From contig JAQUQR010000007.1 of the NCBI GenBank assembly GCA_028715985.1, positions 1-64,000 on the forward strand: a stretch of DNA of 64,000 bases, read 5' to 3'. Numbering within the stretch: the first letter of the stretch is position 1; every line of letters starts with the position of its first letter. The notes beneath the pieces are model-generated. The model did no database searches and had not been told where the DNA came from. It saw only the letters and a list, made by a program, of their open reading frames with translations. Origin of the DNA: Methanocellales archaeon (lineage in GTDB: Archaea; Halobacteriota; UBA148). Below, in pieces: positions 19,638 through 29,289 of the stretch. The translations under genes were made by a program, and so were the position numbers.

Positions 19638-19901
19638 TCATATGATTTCGGATATTTCTACCTTGCTTGTCCCTAATTCAATGGTTTGCAGAAATTTATC
19701 GCTCCTCAAAATGTAAATTCTCACCGAATCCTCAGCCTCATCGATCAAATCTTTAATTCTGTCCTCTATGACCTTTAATTCTACCTTTGTTAGCTCCCCC
19801 TCGAAAACAGAATTCTGGACCCAGTTTAGGTACTGCTTCAAAAATATCCTGACCTTATTCACCCGATCCACATTCACGTCATACACCACAATAACGTACA
19901 T
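19638..19901 (-). CDS. cas2: CRISPR-associated endoribonuclease/adaptor Cas2
   Basis: An 87-residue Cas2, which bridges two Cas1 dimers in the spacer-integration complex. The opening strand MYVIVVYDVN puts the conserved aspartate at D8, followed by the ferredoxin-like fold and the typical FEGELT segment. Normal length. It is the last gene of the adaptation operon, 1 nt after cas1, and its 3' end faces the leader. Confidence 0.95.
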   Translation of the reverse strand: MYVIVVYDVNVDRVNKVRIFLKQYLNWVQNSVFEGELTKVELKVIEDRIKDLIDEAEDSVRIYILRSDKFLQTIELGTSKVEISEII

Positions 19902-19902
19902 C

Positions 19903-20892
19903 CTACCACCACATCACGAGAGGTTTGTACTTATGCGTTCCCAATACGTGCTTCACCAACTTATATAGCTCCAATCGGATGAGGCGTTGATATGAGACTT
20001 CTCTGCCGAGACCTTTGTGCTTAATGGTCGTCGATAACCTATCGTGATAGTTTTGGAGAAAGAGCTTTTTACCGGCATCAGACAAAAACATGTCGCCCAG
20101 CTCGCCCACGAAATGCGAGTCGTCAAGCATCTTCTTGTTGACGAGTTTGAAGATGACCCTGTCAACGATGATCGGCTTGAAGATTTCTGCAACGTCTAAA
20201 GACAGTGAAAACCTTCTCTCAAAAGGCTCATGAAGGTATGAGATCGTGGGATTTAGTTGAGTGTTATAGATTTCCGTGAGCACCGTTCCATACATCAGAG
20301 AATTGCCAAAAGATATGAGGGTGTTCGTCTTGTTGTTCGGCGGCCGTTTGACCCGCTCGCCCATCTTAAATTCCTCAGGGAATATCTTATCGATAGCATC
20401 ATAATACGTGTCGCGTATGTGTCCTTCGACGCCCATGAGTTCCGGAATGTTATTATACTCTTCGATTTTTGGGAGTTCACGTTCAATTCTCCTGATATGG
20501 GTCTCAATCGATGGATTAGAGCTGCAATAATACCTGAGATTCTTCAGGATGTTCTGTGCTGCACCCTCAACGAATCTTTTTGCGAGATAGAGGCGTTTAT
20601 TGGCATCAAGGTGGTGCTCTGCCTGATGGATGGTGACGTCACCAGCTACCAAGGTTTCCCTCGGGTACAAACTTCCCTCATAGAAGCCATAATTGTTGAA
20701 GAAGTGGATTGGCACGCCTTGTCGCGATAGGTAGGATACCACGCCGGATGTGAAGGATAGGTTGCCATAGGCATATATCGCATAGATCTTGCTTATGGGC
20801 AGGGCACGCTTCTCCTCCTTGTTGATGAAATAGATGGTATTCTCTTTCCTTCTCAGAACGCCGTCCTTTGTGATGTAGTAATTGGTTTTCAT
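19903..20892 (-). CDS. cas1: CRISPR integrase Cas1 (type I-B-like)
   Basis: A 329-residue metal-dependent integrase that inserts prespacers at the leader end of the array. The catalytic set is intact: E156 in [13 protein letters not shown]221 in [15 protein letters not shown] and E236 in DVAEIFKP. The sequence is closest in feel to the I-B/Hmari-Tneap Cas1 branch. It lies 12 nt downstream of cas4 and 1 nt upstream of cas2, a standard cas4-cas1-cas2 cassette. Confidence 0.96.
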
Positions 20893-20904: not shown

Positions 20905-21426
20905 TCATTCTCCTCCGAAGCAGAACTCAACATAGCTGCACCTGTTGCACAATTTACGCTTGGATGGCGTGGGCATCTCTCCCGAGACTATTTCGATGAT
21001 GCAGTTCATTATCTGCTCGATGGTTTTAAAGTCCTCTTCCGTAGGCTCAACGATCTCCTTTTTGTTCAACAAGGGGTAGTTCAATACACCTCTCGCTTTG
21101 ACGCCCCTTTGATGCAGATAATACACATAATAGGTAAGCTGCCACCTGTGTGCATCCTCCATTTTCCTGGATTTCTTGATGTCGTGCACCTCTATAACAT
21201 CGCCCTTCTTCACGAAATCGATGGATATAGCGTTGTCAATTATGATGTCCTTCTTCCTCCTCTGATACCTTGATTCGTGTATGTGCTTGCCCATGAGAAC
21301 GTCTTCCGACTCGCGTTCCATCCGGATGTTGTGGGAGAAAAGCCAGAGCTTCGTATGACAGATGAAATAGTATGCTACTTTCACGCCCGTGATGGTCATG
21401 GGCTTGATGTGAGATTGCAACTTCAT
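20905..21426 (-). CDS. cas4: CRISPR-associated exonuclease Cas4
   Basis: A 173-residue RecB-family Fe-S nuclease that trims prespacers and helps select the PAM side. Cysteines C23, C160, C163 and C169 form the 4Fe-4S site. The RecB nuclease core is seen in GKHIHE, D70, IEVHDIKKS and the QxxxY motif QLTYYVYYL. Its ATG overlaps the stop of the upstream fic gene by 4 nt (ATGA), so translation of Cas4 is coupled to the Fic protein, which is unusual for a cas operon. Confidence 0.93.
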   Translation of the reverse strand: MKLQSHIKPMTITGVKVAYYFICHTKLWLFSHNIRMERESEDVLMGKHIHESRYQRRKKDIIIDNAISIDFVKKGDVIEVHDIKKSRKMEDAHRWQLTYYVYYLHQRGVKARGVLNYPLLNKKEIVEPTEEDFKTIEQIMNCIIEIVSGEMPTPSKRKLCNRCSYVEFCFGGE

Positions 21427-22343
21427 CGCCCTTTCTTAGATGTATGTTTCTTTAATGCCCCGCGGGTGGCATGCCATACGCCATTAACTTTCACGGCATC
21501 AAGCACCCCTCTTCTTGCCAACAGGCTCAGGTATTCTTGACCATATGGAGAACCCTTTGCTAGTTCACCAAGTGGCAGCAGCTCATCATCACCGCCCAGT
21601 AATGAAAAGTACAGGTTCAGCGACTCTGCTACTGACCTTGCGACAAAGTTGATGAATGCTGCTGTATCGCCTAGATCCGCCTTTCGCAGCGTTTCATAAT
21701 ACTTTTTCCTCTCCTCCTTCCTCAACACAATGGGTAGATAGCCATACTTCATCAGATGCAAATTTGTGAGAAGCCTCGCAACTCGCCCATTGCCGTCGAC
21801 AAATGGATGGGTGGCCACGATGCCATGATGGAGCAATGCTGCCGTAGTAACTGGGTCATGCGTTGACTTTTCTATGTCCTCCAAGAGCCCTCCCATCAGG
21901 TTAGGAACTTTCATATAACTTGGCGGTGTTTTGGCTGCACCAGTAATGCGAACGTTAGTGGTGCGGTACTTTCCGGCATCCTCTAAAATGCCTTTGGTCA
22001 CAATTCCGTGAACTTCTTGAACGCTTTCATTTGTGAGGGGCTTTTTGCCCTCTGCAAGCTTCTCGATGTAGTCATAGGCCTCTGCAGTATTCGTCGCCTC
22101 TAAATGTTCCCTGAGACTTTTGCCCCCGATCGTAATGCCCTCCTCCAGAATGAGCTTGGTTTCACTGAGCGTTAGGGTGTTCCCTTCTATGGCATTGGAG
22201 TGATAGGTGTGAAGCAACCGCAGCTCTTCCCGCAGCTTTTTCACTGAATCCGCTGGCAGAGGCCGCATCTCGTCCAAACGCCTCATTTTCTCTCGTATCC
22301 TGTCAAAAATGTCTTTTCTTACGGTCTCGTTCATATAATTCAC
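21423..22343 (-). CDS. Fic/DOC family AMP-transferase with inhibitory helix and winged-helix tail
   Basis: A 306-residue Fic-domain protein. The active-site loop HPFVDGNGRVAR (179-190) is complete, so it should transfer AMP (or another nucleotide part) to a target hydroxyl. The N-terminal motif SNAIEGN (49-55) is the S/TxxxE(G/N) inhibitory helix that keeps such enzymes self-restrained. The last 50 residues look like a winged helix that could bind DNA. It overlaps cas4 by 4 nt and is preceded by two identical-architecture dyads and a TATA box, suggesting autoregulation. GTG 22343 or ATG 22334 could be the start; the GGAG ribosome site lies 3 nt or 12 nt away, so the choice is open. Confidence 0.9.
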   Translation of the reverse strand: MNYMNETVRKDIFDRIREKMRRLDEMRPLPADSVKKLREELRLLHTYHSNAIEGNTLTLSETKLILEEGITIGGKSLREHLEATNTAEAYDYIEKLAEGKKPLTNESVQEVHGIVTKGILEDAGKYRTTNVRITGAAKTPPSYMKVPNLMGGLLEDIEKSTHDPVTTAALLHHGIVATHPFVDGNGRVARLLTNLHLMKYGYLPIVLRKEERKKYYETLRKADLGDTAAFINFVARSVAESLNLYFSLLGGDDELLPLGELAKGSPYGQEYLSLLARRGVLDAVKVNGVWHATRGALKKHTSKKGR

Positions 22344-22359
22344 TCACTCCTGCATCTAA

Positions 22360-22395
22360 ATATCGGTATCAGACAAATTTCCAATTAGCCGATAT
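22360..22395. promoter_or_regulatory. Operator-like dyad 1 upstream of fic
   Basis: ATATCGGTATC (22360-22370), 16 bp, then AGCCGATAT (22387-22395). The arms ATATCGG/CCGATAT are inverted. It covers the predicted transcription start and leader of fic, a position suited to repression. Total span is 36 bp, exactly the same as dyad 2. Confidence 0.6.
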
Positions 22396-22419
22396 GAACA
22401 ATGCAGTATAGTATGGATG

Positions 22420-22429
22420 GTATAAATTA
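22420..22429 (-). promoter_or_regulatory. TATA-like box of the fic-cas4-cas1-cas2 operon
   Basis: The minus strand reads TTAATTTATACC across 22419-22430, between the two dyads. Transcription would begin near 22395, inside dyad 1. It is the best candidate promoter for the adaptation operon. Confidence 0.45.
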
Positions 22430-22465
22430 ATATCGGTATCGGGGCTAAAAATGGAGAGCCGATAT
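22430..22465. promoter_or_regulatory. Operator-like dyad 2 upstream of fic
   Basis: A second ATATCGGTATC (22430-22440), 16 bp, AGCCGATAT (22457-22465) lies 70 bp from dyad 1, between vapC and fic. The 16-bp centres differ in sequence, so the conserved arms and spacing are probably selected. It sits just upstream of the TATA-like element at 22420-22429. Confidence 0.6.
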
Positions 22466-22478
22466 TTTAGAAGATAAA

Positions 22479-22922
22479 TCAGATATCCAAGGGCAACACA
22501 ATATGCATCACTCTTCCATCCATTGAGATTTTATCCAGAGCTAACAGCGATTTGTCGAACGTCACCATCTTTCCGATGCCGTTTGATAGGAAGCTTGCCA
22601 GTATCAGGGAGTCCCTGCCACCCAAGCCATATTCCCTGCCAATGGAAAGACCTGTCCTTGTAATCCCTTTTGTCTGATTCAAGAACAGCGTCGTGTCCAT
22701 GTCAACGTAATCGGTCAAAACATCCATTGCCTGGTCTCTGCCCCACTTTTGTGCGTACACAAGGGTATGATAGGCTTCATGGATAAGGGTCGGGTTGGTC
22801 GCAGCGTTTGCGTCAGCCAATCGCTCCGCATCCTTGTGGTCTGGATGCCCGGCATCCAAGAAAGACACCAAAACGTTTGTGTCTATCCCCAGATGCCCTT
22901 TATCTCCTCTGGCGTCGCCCAT
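22479..22922 (-). CDS. vapC: PIN-domain ribonuclease toxin (VapC family)
   Basis: A 147-residue PIN-domain protein, a Mg-dependent RNase toxin of type II toxin-antitoxin systems. The acidic residues are present: D14 (GIDTNVLVSFLD), E49 (IHEAYH), D104 (GGRDSLILAS) and D123 (VTFDKSL). The only ATG start (22922) lies inside vapB, a 40-nt overlap, so toxin translation depends on antitoxin translation. It sits between cas3 and fic within the Cas locus and on the same strand. Confidence 0.88.
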   Translation of the reverse strand: MGDARGDKGHLGIDTNVLVSFLDAGHPDHKDAERLADANAATNPTLIHEAYHTLVYAQKWGRDQAMDVLTDYVDMDTTLFLNQTKGITRTGLSIGREYGLGGRDSLILASFLSNGIGKMVTFDKSLLALDKISMDGRVMHIVLPLDI

Positions 22923-23329: not shown

Positions 23330-25594
23330 TCAAATAAACACGGCATCTTCATTCGTTTTCTGCGGAAGATTAGTTATCTGAAGACCTGTTAGCGGATTAT
23401 ATGGAGTAATGATTGTAAATACATTCTCATCTTCAGAAATAGGTCTGACATACCCCCTAGAAATCAACATGTTGAATTGTGTTACACGTAATGGGACGAG
23501 GAGTAGGCCAGCTTCAATCCATTGCTTATCCTTATGCAACTTTATATATTTATCATAATACATCTCAGGCAAAACCTCGATTAACTGGTCAGTCCCTTCT
23601 ATAACATCCTCTACCCAGTTACGGTAGACTCCAGCAATCGCGTGTTTATCAAAATCCTTCAGTTCTGGATAGTTTAAAGCGCGTTCAAACTCCTCACTTT
23701 CCTTTCTTTCATACCCATCAGCATAAACCATGTCTGCTACATCAATGAGATCTTTTTCTGTCAACACAGCATCTTGTAGCGGTTCTATATATTGGAGGGT
23801 CTTTTCAACAATTGATTTCGGATAAATATTTATTTTATTTACTTGCTCCCTCAATACAACTACAGTTTCAGGATCTCGTTTACCATATCGGTTCACACGC
23901 CCGAACCGCTGAATTAATGCATCGATCGGGGCTGGTTCGCTTAGGCAGGCATCATAATCTAAATTCAAACTGACCTCGACCACTTGAGTAGCAATGAGGA
24001 TTCTTGGTTGCCGACTTAAGATCTTATCCTCAAGATTGCTTCGATCTCCCTGAGTAAAACGTGAATGAATTAATACTGGCATCTCAATATGGTATCTTCC
24101 TTCATGGATTCTATTGACAACGTATTCATAGACACTTTGTGCAGTCGAAACATGATTGCAGATGATTAATAATCTTTTGTCTGGAAAACGTTCCATAAAA
24201 GTATCGAGTTGTTCTAAAGCATTTCCGGGCCATATCTCAAGTATATGCCGCTTTTTGATGATGACTTCGTTGTCCATTGGCTTCGTCGGATCTGGTTCGA
24301 TTATTGTCAGATCGGTGGGTAAATGCTCTTTGATAAGTTCTTGAAGAAACTCTGGCATTGTTGCTGATGCGAATAGAAACTTTGCGCCTAGAGGGTTTAG
24401 CCATTGAATCATCGCGAATATGAGTCCTATGATTCTCGGCTCATAAGCATGAATCTCATCAAAAATAAAGCATGCTCCTGGAAATTCTATCAAGGATTGC
24501 TCCCAACCACGCCCGCGTAATGCACTGCGTAGAATTTGATGTGGTGTGCATGTTCGGATCGGATAGTACATCTCCCGCGCAAGGTCTGCCAGAAGCTTTG
24601 CCTTGCCACCATCCTGTGATGTGTCTTCCTGAAGTTTATACAGATACGCCACATTTTTGTGATGGAGAAGCCCCACGTTTCTTTGACCATATATAGTCCG
24701 TAATGTGCTAAACATTGCGTTTATGCTTGCCGTATATGGCAGTACATAGAATAGACGTCCATTTTCAATTTGATTGCCAGCTGCCCATAAAAGGGAAGCT
24801 TTTGTTTTTCCAGAACCGGTGGGCGCTCTCAGAATAGCATCACCGCGAACAGCTCCAGAAACTAACTGAAATGGACGGGGCGATTCATCCTCTCTGAAAA
24901 CCTGAAAATTCCTTAATGCAACTGGTAGCGGGGGACTCGTTTCATTAGCAGATGATAGATGATCTGAACTGGTCAGTGCACCCCGTAATAGTGCAGCATA
25001 TCTCCGTTTATACTCTGGTATTTTTGCAGGTTGCCCATTTCTTGTCGAGCGGGATAACCACTCATACGATAGCCCTATATCTGCGATATCGGGAACTTTA
25101 TCCAGTTCCCATTCCCGATGCTTTGTTTCCCGGCACACTCTGTTCCACACATTCAGAAGGTCTTTGGATCGTTCATACCATTCACCTCGCATATCTTCAT
25201 ACACTGGCTGGATATTGTCTAAATCTCCCTTGAACAGCATCTGGTGTTCAGGTAACGTTTTCTCATTAATTGTCGCAGCGTCTGGTAAAATATTTCTGTG
25301 ATGGGTTAAAACCGCAAATAACAGTTCTTCTTTCACGTTATAAAATGTCGCAGCAAAAGCAGTGGATAGAATTTCATGACGCCTGCCAGACCAGTTCTTT
25401 GCTTGCTTATACATAACATCCTGAAAACCACTCGCTGATTTGCCAACATCATGCACAATAGCACAGAAGAGCAGATCCTTCTTCAATTTCTCGCGGTATC
25501 CACTATCAAATGGCGCACCATCGGCAATTGAAGATGCTACTTTTGCACAATCCAGCAGATGATTAAAGAGTGTTGTTTTTCCATCACTCTTTGC
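23330..25594 (-). CDS. cas3: CRISPR helicase-nuclease Cas3 (HD + helicase)
   Basis: The effector nuclease of type I interference: it unwinds and degrades target DNA marked by Cascade. An N-terminal HD nuclease domain (FCAIVHDVGKSASGFQ, with a later HE and HH) is fused to a superfamily 2 helicase with Walker A APTGSGKT (about 258-265), DEIHAYEP (about 379-386), SATMP and QRFGRVNRYG. The frame opens at 25636, but ATG 25594 (MAKSDGKTTLFNHL) has an AGGA ribosome site and cuts the overlap with cas5 to 11 nt, so I use it (754 aa). Confidence 0.94.
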   Translation of the reverse strand, partial: AKSDGKTTLFNHLLDCAKVASSIADGAPFDSGYREKLKKDLLFCAIVHDVGKSASGFQDVMYKQAKNWSGRRHEILSTAFAATFYNVKEELLFAVLTHHRNILPDAATINEKTLPEHQMLFKGDLDNIQPVYEDMRGEWYERSKDLLNVWNRVCRETKHREWELDKVPDIADIGLSYEWLSRSTRNGQPAKIPEYKRRYAALLRGALTSSDHLSSANETSPPLPVALRNFQVFREDESPRPFQLVSGAVRGDAILRAPTGSGKTKASLLWAAGNQIENGRLFYVLPYTASINAMFSTLRTIYGQRNVGLLHHKNVAYLYKLQEDTSQDGGKAKLLADLAREMYYPIRTCTPHQILRSALRGRGWEQSLIEFPGACFIFDEIHAYEPRIIGLIFAMIQWLNPLGAKFLFASATMPEFLQELIKEHLPTDLTIIEPDPTKPMDNEVIIKKRHILEIWPGNALEQLDTFMERFPDKRLLIICNHVSTAQSVYEYVVNRIHEGRYHIEMPVLIHSRFTQGDRSNLEDKILSRQPRILIATQVVEVSLNLDYDACLSEPAPIDALIQRFGRVNRYGKRDPETVVVLREQVNKINIYPKSIVEKTLQYIEPLQDAVLTEKDLIDVADMVYADGYERKESEEFERALNYPELKDFDKHAIAGVYRNWVEDVIEGTDQLIEVLPEMYYDKYIKLHKDKQWIEAGLLLVPLRVTQFNMLISRGYVRPISEDENVFTIITPYNPLTGLQITNLPQKTNEDAVFI

Positions 25595-26288
25595 CATCAA
25601 TTCCTGCCCACTTGTGGAGATATATAACGTGATCATCGTCCTCGTCGGTTTTTACGTGATATAAATTCGGATTCACAATGATCGAGCCTGTGGGAATAAC
25701 TTGAAATAATCGAATATTCATGGGGTCTCTTGTCACTCCAGTTTTTTTGTTGTCAAAGAATTCCGGAAGTCTTAGCATCCTACCACCCACGGCCTCTTGT
25801 GGAAATGGCATGAGTGTTGTACAGACCTTACCAGATGGCTTTTGCTCCACATCTACCTTTTCAACCCTCTCGATCCATGCTAAATCCTGTGATCTTCCGA
25901 AGGTTGGAATCCCAGCAGGTTGCATGAGAATATCAAAGAAATCCATATTATCTAAATATAATTCTAAAACTGGGTACGCATGGAATTCATAGAATCTTAT
26001 GGATGTTCCTTTGGGGTGGGGTCGCAACCTATCATCTTTAAGTTCAAATCGGTGGGTTGTCTCCATGTCCACACCCAATCCGGCACCAGAAGTACCTTCA
26101 CCAAAACGATACTCAAAGCCTATCCTAACCTCATCGGGATAAACTTCTCTTCCTGCACAACATCCGATAAATCCAAGCAGTGTAGAGTATGACGGTACTG
26201 GGGCACAGAGAGATTTACCGCTCACGATAAGAGGGATCCTAAACGTTGCTGTAATCCCCCTGATTGTAGCATGGATTAGTTTATCCAT
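25584..26288 (-). CDS. cas5: Cascade subunit Cas5 (type I-B)
   Basis: A 234-residue RAMP protein that holds the crRNA 5' handle in the type I Cascade. The N-terminal strand HATIRGITATFRIPL followed by the glycine-rich PSYSTLLGFIGCCAG is the Cas5 signature. It sits between cas7 and cas3, as in I-B operons. The end overlaps cas3. Confidence 0.88.
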   Translation of the reverse strand: MDKLIHATIRGITATFRIPLIVSGKSLCAPVPSYSTLLGFIGCCAGREVYPDEVRIGFEYRFGEGTSGAGLGVDMETTHRFELKDDRLRPHPKGTSIRFYEFHAYPVLELYLDNMDFFDILMQPAGIPTFGRSQDLAWIERVEKVDVEQKPSGKVCTTLMPFPQEAVGGRMLRLPEFFDNKKTGVTRDPMNIRLFQVIPTGSIIVNPNLYHVKTDEDDDHVIYLHKWAGIDGKE

Positions 26289-26329
26289 CTGAAACCCCCC
26301 TCTGTCGTGTTATGTCGGTTTGTTTACAT

Positions 26330-27478
26330 TCACTGCGCCGTTTTGTCTCGATCATATCCAAGATGCTTGGAAACAAACGCTTTTGTTATGTTGATCGGTG
26401 TATCAACAACAAATCTTGAATCGCCATTGGCGAGTGTACGTATCGTTTTCTCGTTTTCGAGATTAAGATAGCCTTTTCTAATTCCGATATAAATAGGAGT
26501 AACCAATCGATCTGCATAGTCTGCTGCGATCTCCTTGAGCGTCTCTACTTTTATGTTTGGTCCATCATGTGATGCTTGATCTGGGTTGTCTTCGAATATA
26601 TTGTTGAGTATCAGATTGCCACAATCAAGCCCAGCAAGAATTAGTACTTTTGGAGATACGTCTGTTGCAAACGCTGCCTGTTTGGCACCACCTCGCAGAA
26701 TTGAAATAGCATGTAAAAGCTCTCCTGCGCGAATTTTCGCAGCATTACTATCTGAGAGTTCGTAAATATCCTTCTCTCGCTCTTTCAGTTTACCAGACTC
26801 AGTCCCAGGCTTGATGAGTTCTTCACGCAATTCTATGCGGTCACCAACGTTACGAAAAACTCCAGCACGTGTCATATCCAATCCAAATATAGCCTGTAGA
26901 TTGGTGTTATAGAAGACCGTAGAATATGGAACAGGTGTCCCCTCCTCTAAATGAACGAAACCCTCATCCTTTCCTTTCCATCCAAATTTCCGCAGTGATA
27001 CTAGAATCGAGGACATAAATGGAGACGCTCTGATCAGTGCCTTAACTTTAATTCTTTGTTGAGTTTCTTCACCACTAGATTCTTCTTCACCACTAGATTC
27101 TTCTTCTGCCTTTTTGGTACGCCCTTGTCCTTCCTCAGACCTCATATATCCAAATAGATCGTCCTCAGGATAGTCGATCGGATTCAGCTCTCCTGCTATC
27201 TTACTGGTAGTCCCCCTCTCGCTCTGCTTGATGGCATGCAATGTACTCTTTGGCCACTCAGTTTCTTCGATTAACGTGTCCCTCAACCAGCGACGCCATG
27301 CCTGCGCTGATACATACGGCACTCGGTACTTTCCATTGGAGAACTGCTTGGGTATAACGCTGGTTCGATCTTCACCAGATGTATCTATGCCGGCACCGTT
27401 CAGGAATGCCCCATTAGCCGAAACAAGGAATGTTCCGACTATGTGACTCATTTCTTTGGTTTGTTTCTTTTCTAACAT
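26330..27478 (-). CDS. cas7: Cascade backbone Cas7 (Cst2/DevR-like)
   Basis: A 382-residue Cas7 of the DevR/Cst2 group, which coats the crRNA spacer. Family features are VGTFLVSANGAFLNGAG near the start and VPYVSAQAWRRWLRDTL near 55-70, with HAISILRGGAKQAAF later. A low-complexity acidic insert (two copies of EESSGE around residue 130) comes from an 18-bp tandem duplication at 27065-27100, probably in the surface thumb or linker. It starts 1 nt after the cas8 stop, so the two are coupled. Confidence 0.9.
   Translation of the reverse strand: MLEKKQTKEMSHIVGTFLVSANGAFLNGAGIDTSGEDRTSVIPKQFSNGKYRVPYVSAQAWRRWLRDTLIEETEWPKSTLHAIKQSERGTTSKIAGELNPIDYPEDDLFGYMRSEEGQGRTKKAEEESSGEEESSGEETQQRIKVKALIRASPFMSSILVSLRKFGWKGKDEGFVHLEEGTPVPYSTVFYNTNLQAIFGLDMTRAGVFRNVGDRIELREELIKPGTESGKLKEREKDIYELSDSNAAKIRAGELLHAISILRGGAKQAAFATDVSPKVLILAGLDCGNLILNNIFEDNPDQASHDGPNIKVETLKEIAADYADRLVTPIYIGIRKGYLNLENEKTIRTLANGDSRFVVDTPINITKAFVSKHLGYDRDKTAQ
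27065..27100 (-). repeat. 18-bp tandem duplication inside cas7
   Basis: TTCTTCACCACTAGATTC occurs at 27065-27082 and again at 27083-27100, adding six acidic/serine residues in frame. The copies are identical, suggesting a recent slippage event that could vary between strains. Confidence 0.85.
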
Positions 27479-27479
27479 T

Positions 27480-29183
27480 TTAATTCCCTCCAGTTTGATT
27501 ATTTTTAGGATTTGTCAGTATATTCTCCTGTAGCTTCCTACGATACAGGTCAGCCAGAGCCAATCTCATCTGAAATAGAAGCTCATATCCAACAAAATTC
27601 CCATACTCATCATGGCATAAATCATGCCAGAATATATCCCAATCGTCTGGTCCGAATCCTTCGTGACGTTCGGACAGGTTACACATCACATTTTCAATCC
27701 AATAAACGTTTTTTGTGCCCCTCTTGAATTCATCAAGGACATCCTTTTTGAAACGCTTCAATCCACGATCTTCAACGTAGTCGTTGAAGTATAGACGTGC
27801 GGCTTCCAGTATCTTCGGATTCATTTTCATAGACTCGCCTTCTATATATTTGTTGTATTCATAATTTGGAATTTCATCACCTAAATGACGAAGGAAATAC
27901 GTGATTATATTGAACCCTTTGTAACTAACCAGTAGCGGAAATAGTGACTCCACCGGAAAGATGTAAAGGTAATCAGCGATTGATAACTCGCCTCCCTCTA
28001 CCATCTCAACAATTTTACCCTTCAGAATGTTACGCTTTTTAGTATCTTTGAATACATCTGACTTAATCCACGCCTTTTGTTCCTTTGTATTATCTAGCAG
28101 AAGACCTTTAGCTAGTTTTTGTGATGCAACGAGAGTTTTATGTGGTACACCGAGAAGTCGAGTTTGATAGAATGCGAACATCTTAACAGAAGTACCATCA
28201 TATTTCTTTCGTGGGTATAGTCCAATATAATCTGTTTTGTTGCGAATTGAATTCAATAAATGTTTATCTGGATTCATAATAAATTTATCAGCCATTGTTA
28301 GTGATGCAATCTCGCTATCCAGTCCATATCTCGCTGCATCCCAGATGAACCGGACTGCTGCATCTGGTATCTGCATTATATCGCAGCTCGGGCTGGTTCC
28401 GGAGTTACTGAAGAGCCATATGTCAAGTTCCGCATTTTTTGGCAGTTCTTCTCTCTTTTGTGCCCGCTGGATTTCTCTAAATCTATAACACAGCCATTCC
28501 ACAGTTTCGCCGCTCGGTCGTTTTTTACCGATGGTTTCTACCTTCTCTCCGCCGACTGACAATAATCTACGATTCTCATTAACGATCGACGCGATAATAT
28601 CCTGAACGAACGGCTGATGCGCACCCTCGAACACCATCAGTTTGCCATTTAATAGTCTGGTACCGATTGGAATGTAATTCACAGCGAAAAGGCATCTTGG
28701 ACAGACATTAAACATTCTCGAAGACGATGGCAGTGCCTGAGCATCGCTACCAAGAGTTCCAATAAGTGGAAAAAAGTCTCTTCCAATGGCGTGGTCGCTC
28801 TCTCTATCGTCATCTACCTGTTCATATGCGGCATTGAGATCACATGCAGGAAACTCACCACAGCATTCACACATCCCTAAATTAGGATTTGCATTTTCTA
28901 TCTGAGCTAGTAGTCCCGATAAAATTGAAATATATTTTCTTTTACGAAATTCCTCATATTTTTCCCCTCTCGGTTGATACAAAGGACCATTATTGCCAAA
29001 TACCATTGTAAAAGATTTTAATCTAGAATTCCAATCTGCTAAATCATCGCCCGATCCAAATACCCGCTTCACATCACCATGGTCAATCTGAGTAAATGGC
29101 TCCTTGCCTGCCAAATGAGCGATAACGGCTTGCCCAGTATCTACAAATGGATTGCCAGTAACTCGATAAATGTAATTTTTCAC
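27480..29183 (-). CDS. cas8: Cascade large subunit Cas8 (Cst1-like, CXXC-CXXC)
   Basis: The large subunit that recognises PAM and target in type I-B Cascade. YRVTGNPFVDTGQAVIAHLAG at the N-terminus and two cysteine pairs (CECCGEFPAC, and FNVCPRC) match the Cst1/CXXC-CXXC family (subtype I-B, Tneap branch). The frame is open to an ATG at 29216, but a strong ribosome site CAAGGAGG (29191-29198) sits 7 nt before GTG 29183, so I take GTG as the start (567 aa). An ACGAT-AA-ATCGT dyad at 29215-29226 lies just upstream. Confidence 0.9.
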   Translation of the reverse strand: MKNYIYRVTGNPFVDTGQAVIAHLAGKEPFTQIDHGDVKRVFGSGDDLADWNSRLKSFTMVFGNNGPLYQPRGEKYEEFRKRKYISILSGLLAQIENANPNLGMCECCGEFPACDLNAAYEQVDDDRESDHAIGRDFFPLIGTLGSDAQALPSSSRMFNVCPRCLFAVNYIPIGTRLLNGKLMVFEGAHQPFVQDIIASIVNENRRLLSVGGEKVETIGKKRPSGETVEWLCYRFREIQRAQKREELPKNAELDIWLFSNSGTSPSCDIMQIPDAAVRFIWDAARYGLDSEIASLTMADKFIMNPDKHLLNSIRNKTDYIGLYPRKKYDGTSVKMFAFYQTRLLGVPHKTLVASQKLAKGLLLDNTKEQKAWIKSDVFKDTKKRNILKGKIVEMVEGGELSIADYLYIFPVESLFPLLVSYKGFNIITYFLRHLGDEIPNYEYNKYIEGESMKMNPKILEAARLYFNDYVEDRGLKRFKKDVLDEFKRGTKNVYWIENVMCNLSERHEGFGPDDWDIFWHDLCHDEYGNFVGYELLFQMRLALADLYRRKLQENILTNPKNNQTGGN

Positions 29184-29289
29184 TCTACGACCTCCTTGTA
29201 TCCATCCATAAATCACGATAAATCGTCATTTCAATTGTCCGCTCTTTAAGCGCTTCCATCTACGACCCCTGTTTAGATATCATTTGCAT

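Follow-up and report, generated by a model that had tools for sequence, protein, structure and literature searches.

The window analysed here, a stretch of 64,000 nucleotides from a Methanocellales archaeon, raises the question of why the short gap in front of a fic gene, itself followed by CRISPR adaptation genes, is filled by two copies of the same interrupted dyad. The gap was confirmed to span 22344-22478, between the fic ATG at 22334 and the vapC stop at 22479. The two dyads, of the form ATATCGGTATC-N16-AGCCGATAT, are found at 22360-22395 and 22430-22465, where the preliminary description had placed them, with identical arms, 16-bp centres unrelated in sequence and a start-to-start distance of 70 bp. 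Allowing three mismatches, 100 shuffles of the window gave an expectation of 0 dyads, and the pair represents the only copies of the dyad in the 1.5-Mb genome, with no third. The features to which the argument refers are the following.

22430-22465, minus strand: distal dyad (candidate operator 1), reading ATATCGGCT-N16-GATACCGATAT toward fic, conserved before fic orthologs
22421-22426, minus strand: TTTATA, a putative TATA box lying between the two dyads, read by eye and compared with orthologs
22360-22395, minus strand: proximal dyad (candidate operator 2), over the expected transcription start and the fic 5′ leader, conserved
21423-22334, minus strand: fic, class II Fic protein of 303 aa (Pfam Fic, E=1.5e-20)
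22182-22199, minus strand: inhibitory-helix motif S46-N-A-I-E50-G51, near-invariant in 25 orthologs
21783-21809, minus strand: catalytic motif HPFVDGNGR, residues 176-184, invariant or nearly so in 25 orthologs
21426-21584, minus strand: predicted C-terminal winged helix (E-H-H-E-E-H in the AF2 model), proposed operator-binding domain, whose presence tracks the dyad
20905-21426, minus strand: cas4, with a 4-nt overlap with the fic stop codon (ATGA, 21423-21426)
19903-20892, minus strand: cas1, third gene of a proposed fic-cas4-cas1-cas2 operon
19638-19901, minus strand: cas2, last of the four genes in this proposed operon

The position of one dyad beside the TATA box and of the other at the start site, as first described, holds by inspection. 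The distal dyad abuts the TATA/BRE region, and in orthologs its edge facing the gene likewise carries TTTATA or TATATA. With an archaeal start about 25 nt downstream of the TATA box, transcription of fic is expected, by eye, to begin at ~22395-22400, close to 22398. The conserved unit departs a little from the one first described: it is asymmetric and reads, toward fic, ATATCGG-N16-(CC)GATACCGATAT; the half-site is TATCGG, the right arm carries it in tandem duplicate and the outer heptamers are separated by 22 bp.

The presence of the motif before homologous fic genes had been set beforehand as one of the checks on the idea of a fic operator, and the motif was found there in two archaeal phyla. 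Orthologs of fic whose proteins are 52-89% identical to the one encoded here carry the same dyad, in most cases as a pair, at the promoter or over the start codon. Its geometry is fixed as TATCGG-N18-GATACCGATA with a divergent centre. In the ortholog tally the arms come near 2 bits per column around a variable centre; the arm values are partly a matter of construction, as the tallied dyads were chosen by pattern match, the loci being chosen by protein homology alone. A relative from the same genus, with a Fic 89% identical, keeps both dyads with identical arms 65 bp apart, a distance accounted for by a 5-bp deletion between them. Among orthologs the two dyads are separated by 43-70 bp, most often 50, and locus L030 gives 111 bp only via a second site with 4 mismatches. 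Because this distance varies, it is not the selected feature: the earlier suggestion that both arms and spacing are selected stands for the arms and the internal geometry, which orthologs keep, and fails for the 70 bp. Orthologs with a single dyad were also seen, which means that a pair is not required, and in many orthologs the proximal dyad reaches over the start codon. At L098, L099, L100, L102, L108 and similar Methanosarcinaceae-like loci (family names such as this one are inferred for these genomes), the dyad arms over the fic start also encode the N-terminus M-T-H-T-D-T.

Within the phylum, a strong dyad match is present in 40 of 394 genomes. The second phylum, Thermoplasmatota, was reached via a Methanomassiliicoccales genome, and there 14 of the 17 fic matches have the dyad with at most two mismatches, mostly twin. 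The three most divergent Thermoplasmatota fic matches (42% identity; L277, L278, L280) carry twin dyads of an altered design, TATCGGAT-N17-ATCCGATA, which may represent a natural specificity variant; co-evolution of the protein with its site would produce such a pattern.

The protein that reads these sites is probably Fic itself. The AF2 model of the protein (mean pLDDT 90.8) has a Fic fold closest to those of FICD and BT_2513, and both the catalytic motif HPFx[D/E]GNGR and the inhibitory helix [S/T]xxxE[G/N] are present, as HPFVDGNGR and SNAIEG. The C-terminal domain was also modelled in isolation (AlphaFold, pLDDT 90.4), and Foldseek matched it to TraN, the RdfS excisionase, a phage P2 DNA-binding protein, BldC-DNA and SoxR-DNA with probabilities of 0.89-0.97, TM scores of 0.61-0.67 and E-values of only 0.1-0.5. 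The models point to a winged helix of the MerR/excisionase type. Pfam and PDB sequence searches for a name for this domain gave no Pfam or convincing PDB match, and two ankyrin matches were discarded, since they rest on repeated 15-residue chance matches. Fic proteins with a C-terminal HTH of the MerR or excisionase type are also encoded on viral contigs (L137, L139, L140, L141, L142, L161).

The domain and the dyad were found to go together. When Fic homologs were sorted by an HMM of the C-terminal 60 residues of fic, a dyad within two mismatches lay beside the start in 38 of the 39 intact fic genes that encode this domain and in none of the 26 homologs that lack it, a strict association (Fisher p ~2e-16, computed on a slightly more conservative table). 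One over-extended frame (L038) was scored separately, from the locus-level dyad search. The domain-bearing fragments L105 and the 3′ part of L085 were left out as truncated; two N-terminal pieces that have the dyad, the 5′ part of L085 and L088, were left out too.

A scan of the 394 genomes returned 50 exact dyad matches, 38 of them at fic, and a reversed control pattern stayed near zero in nearly all genomes; the 18 control matches in one genome (G236) probably belong to an unrelated repeat family. Five of the other 12 exact matches (G056, G375, G134, G294 contig 6 and G077) are situated at loci where relatives keep fic, and the same is true of one-mismatch sites in G099 and G278. The contexts of the five exact sites are the intervals gyrB/ASCH-like gene, chelatase gene/phosphoribosyltransferase and thermosome/radical-SAM gene, and a position next to a fic-promoter-like stretch. 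These orphan dyads (L079, L080, L081, L082, L086, L087, L092) look like leftovers of repeated loss of fic, a reading drawn from gene order among relatives; a tblastn search for long fic remnants at orphan sites found none. The seven exact matches neither at fic nor at a recognised vacant fic locus comprise one inside a coding frame (G366 contig 138) and six that all occur in Methanosarcinaceae-like genomes, one of which, before a U32 peptidase, resembles by eye a decayed fic 5′ end. Given this distribution, the motif behaves as a component of the fic locus rather than as a general regulatory site. A genome-wide regulon was rejected, as the genome of the window has two sites only and, of the off-fic sites tested elsewhere, seven are vacant fic loci and one is an intracoding match. 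The conservation of the putative operator is such that the motif can be used to locate both intact and lost fic loci. At L088 (914-1579), L085 (3975-4733) and L090, fic is split by a transposase-like frame (G376), broken by stops (G360) or present as two nearby copies (G168), and the dyad is present each time. Viral contigs contain 25 exact dyad matches, which may be due to chance given the size of the collection.

These observations make it very likely that the dyads are operators of the fic gene through which Fic represses its own transcription; in this genus cas4-cas1-cas2 may come under the same control. A Fic dimer, or a higher oligomer, would sit on each dyad, each outer TATCGG half-site being contacted by one C-terminal winged helix. 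Fic would cover the TATA/BRE side from the distal operator, while at the proximal operator it would lie over the transcription start or, in other species, the start codon. In the genus of the window, cas4-cas1-cas2 lie directly behind fic with overlapping frames and would be repressed with it, rising when Fic leaves the DNA. Cooperative autoregulation, perhaps by the winged helix of Fic, had been proposed at the outset. Conservation in orthologs, domain tracking, the vacant loci and the precedent of CccR (see below) argue strongly for the autoregulation; a phase-dependent cooperativity of dyads at a fixed 70 bp was rejected in view of the 43-70 bp spacing.

The Fic enzyme class is known mostly for modifying proteins, and the motif provides a precise candidate operator for an archaeal Fic family, which would link this class of enzymes to autoregulation at the DNA level in Archaea. 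The one proven case of such autoregulation found in the literature is bacterial: CccR of Yersinia pseudotuberculosis, a Fic protein with a C-terminal HTH, was footprinted on AGATAATCAT-N26-ATGATAATCT and acts as a dimer to repress the promoter of its own gene (PMC9755527). Both systems combine a Fic domain with an inhibitory helix, a C-terminal HTH (here predicted) and a long-spacer inverted repeat in the gene's own promoter. They differ in half-site and spacing, CccR having N26 and one operator whereas the dyads here are usually twinned, and CccR is a bacterial T6SS effector, whereas the present host is archaeal and the putative operator heads CRISPR adaptation genes in one genus. The archaeal Fic would thus work like CccR but, judged by the sequence and spacing of its candidate operator, is not classed as a CccR ortholog; an autoregulated Fic-HTH is a known kind, and the archaeal host and the twin candidate operators appear to be what is new here. 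CbFic2 of Coxiella burnetii is likewise a class II Fic with a C-terminal winged HTH, which binds DNA; DNA drives its dimerisation and alters its activity, with a shift towards the deAMPylating dimer (PMC10628234). By analogy, operator binding could also keep the Fic enzyme quiet. Contrary to the specific, conserved candidate operator described here, the CbFic2 paper has no cognate operator, random DNA having been used (PMC10628234). SoFic (PDB 3EQX) shares the Fic fold, and the present protein matches the PADLOC SoFic model at E=6.6e-33 and the best of the PDC-S04 models at 3.1e-35, but the score against the NCBIfam SoFic model is 34 bits for a cut-off of 550 bits and the match ends before the C-terminal domain. 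A type II toxin-antitoxin Fic/Doc system with a separate antitoxin was rejected, as fic neighbours vary among loci and no conserved adjacent antitoxin gene was found.

Other readings of the dyads have to be weighed against autorepression. Some genomes in which no fic of this type was found nevertheless have a dyad, in a few instances, which would suit a separate host transcription factor that reads the dyads and regulates fic; seven of the fic-less sites tested are vacant fic loci, though, elsewhere in the 394 genomes the motif hardly occurs away from fic, the presence of the dyad follows the C-terminal domain of Fic and the site design shifts as Fic diverges. Moreover, gene neighbours differ among loci, so no regulator is linked to the sites, and the involvement of a separate factor is unlikely. 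The proximity of vapBC, which lies upstream at only 13 bp from the distal dyad, would fit binding by VapB, an AbrB-type antitoxin, or a mark at the end of the vapBC operon. Orthologs of fic with the same dyads have unrelated genes upstream (among them thermosome, gyrB and chelatase genes), and a search for a terminator-like site found none; with dyads present in orthologs that lack vapBC, both VapB binding and a vapBC terminator were rejected as having almost no probability.

Two further readings place the dyads at the fic promoter itself. If they acted in RNA, as hairpins masking the start site of fic, it would agree with the fold of the proximal dyad alone (z=-2.96) and with its span over the start codon in many orthologs, but in its 67-nt context the same hairpin does not stand out from shuffled sequences (z=0.11), the distal dyad, upstream of the TATA box, would be outside the fic mRNA, and it is the sequence of the arms that is conserved, no compensatory changes having been noticed; this reading is highly improbable. 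As to the direction of control, archaeal activators can act upstream of the TATA box, where the distal dyad is located, and direction is unreadable from sequence, so that Fic might activate its own promoter. Repression is preferred because the proximal dyad sits over the expected start site or, elsewhere, the start codon, a position that fits blocking, and CccR is a repressor (PMC9755527); activation is accordingly given a quite small chance.

Autorepression by Fic would raise the further question of what is repressed together with fic. Upstream of fic are vapB and vapC, and beyond them type I-B cas3, cas5, cas7 and cas8, hepT/mntA-like genes and cas6. The adaptation genes belong to type I-B, with Cas4b, Cas1b, Cas2b and Cas8b found together with Cas7, Cas5, Cas6 and Cas3. 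The ATGA overlap between fic and cas4 is found in two species of one genus only, those of the window genome and G002, and in the sister genus cas1 is at a contig edge. None of the other annotated fic loci checked has cas4, cas1 or cas2 adjacent. Since the other orthologs are not beside cas genes, the link to cas is a rewiring confined to this locus, not a trait that belongs to the regulator as such. The idea that spacer-acquisition genes came under a Fic regulator therefore survives in a reduced form: the overlap in two species hints at it, the orthologs without adjoining cas genes speak against it, and control of cas4-cas1-cas2 by Fic is plausible as a local arrangement. Transcripts of vapBC could also read through into fic-cas4, and an internal promoter for the cas genes is a possible alternative to co-transcription with fic.

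On a more speculative level, the Fic autorepressor might be a sensor switch for the formation of CRISPR memory, whose release would co-induce an AMPylating, possibly toxic Fic and Cas4-Cas1-Cas2. Release could follow from a phage-induced change in ATP or redox, from the AMPylation state or from titration of Fic. If this tentative idea is true, an enzyme of growth arrest, itself the repressor of the operon that encodes it, would be coupled to spacer acquisition. Regulation of CRISPR adaptation genes is known mainly for Csa3 in Sulfolobales, and the arrangement in this one genus suggests how such genes can come under a regulator unrelated to Csa3. The archaeal Csa3a is a CARF + wHTH activator that sets the level of cas4/cas1/cas2 (PMC4333418). 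Fic would resemble it in action, as a transcription factor that sets the level of adaptation genes, and differ in being a Fic enzyme and probably a repressor. A Csa3 (CARF-wHTH) identity for the regulator was rejected, as Pfam gives only Fic, without CARF, and AF2/Foldseek give a Fic fold.

The surroundings of the locus differ between the two species of the genus. The flanks, vapBC-fic-cas4-cas1-cas2 on one side and hepT/mnt-cas6 on the other, are 86-95% identical in the window and G002; the segment corresponding to 23330-29216 of the window (L009 9041-15151 in G002) contains a different type I effector set, with Cas3 28% and Cas7 24% identical. Judged from this comparison, one interference cassette appears to have taken the place of another.
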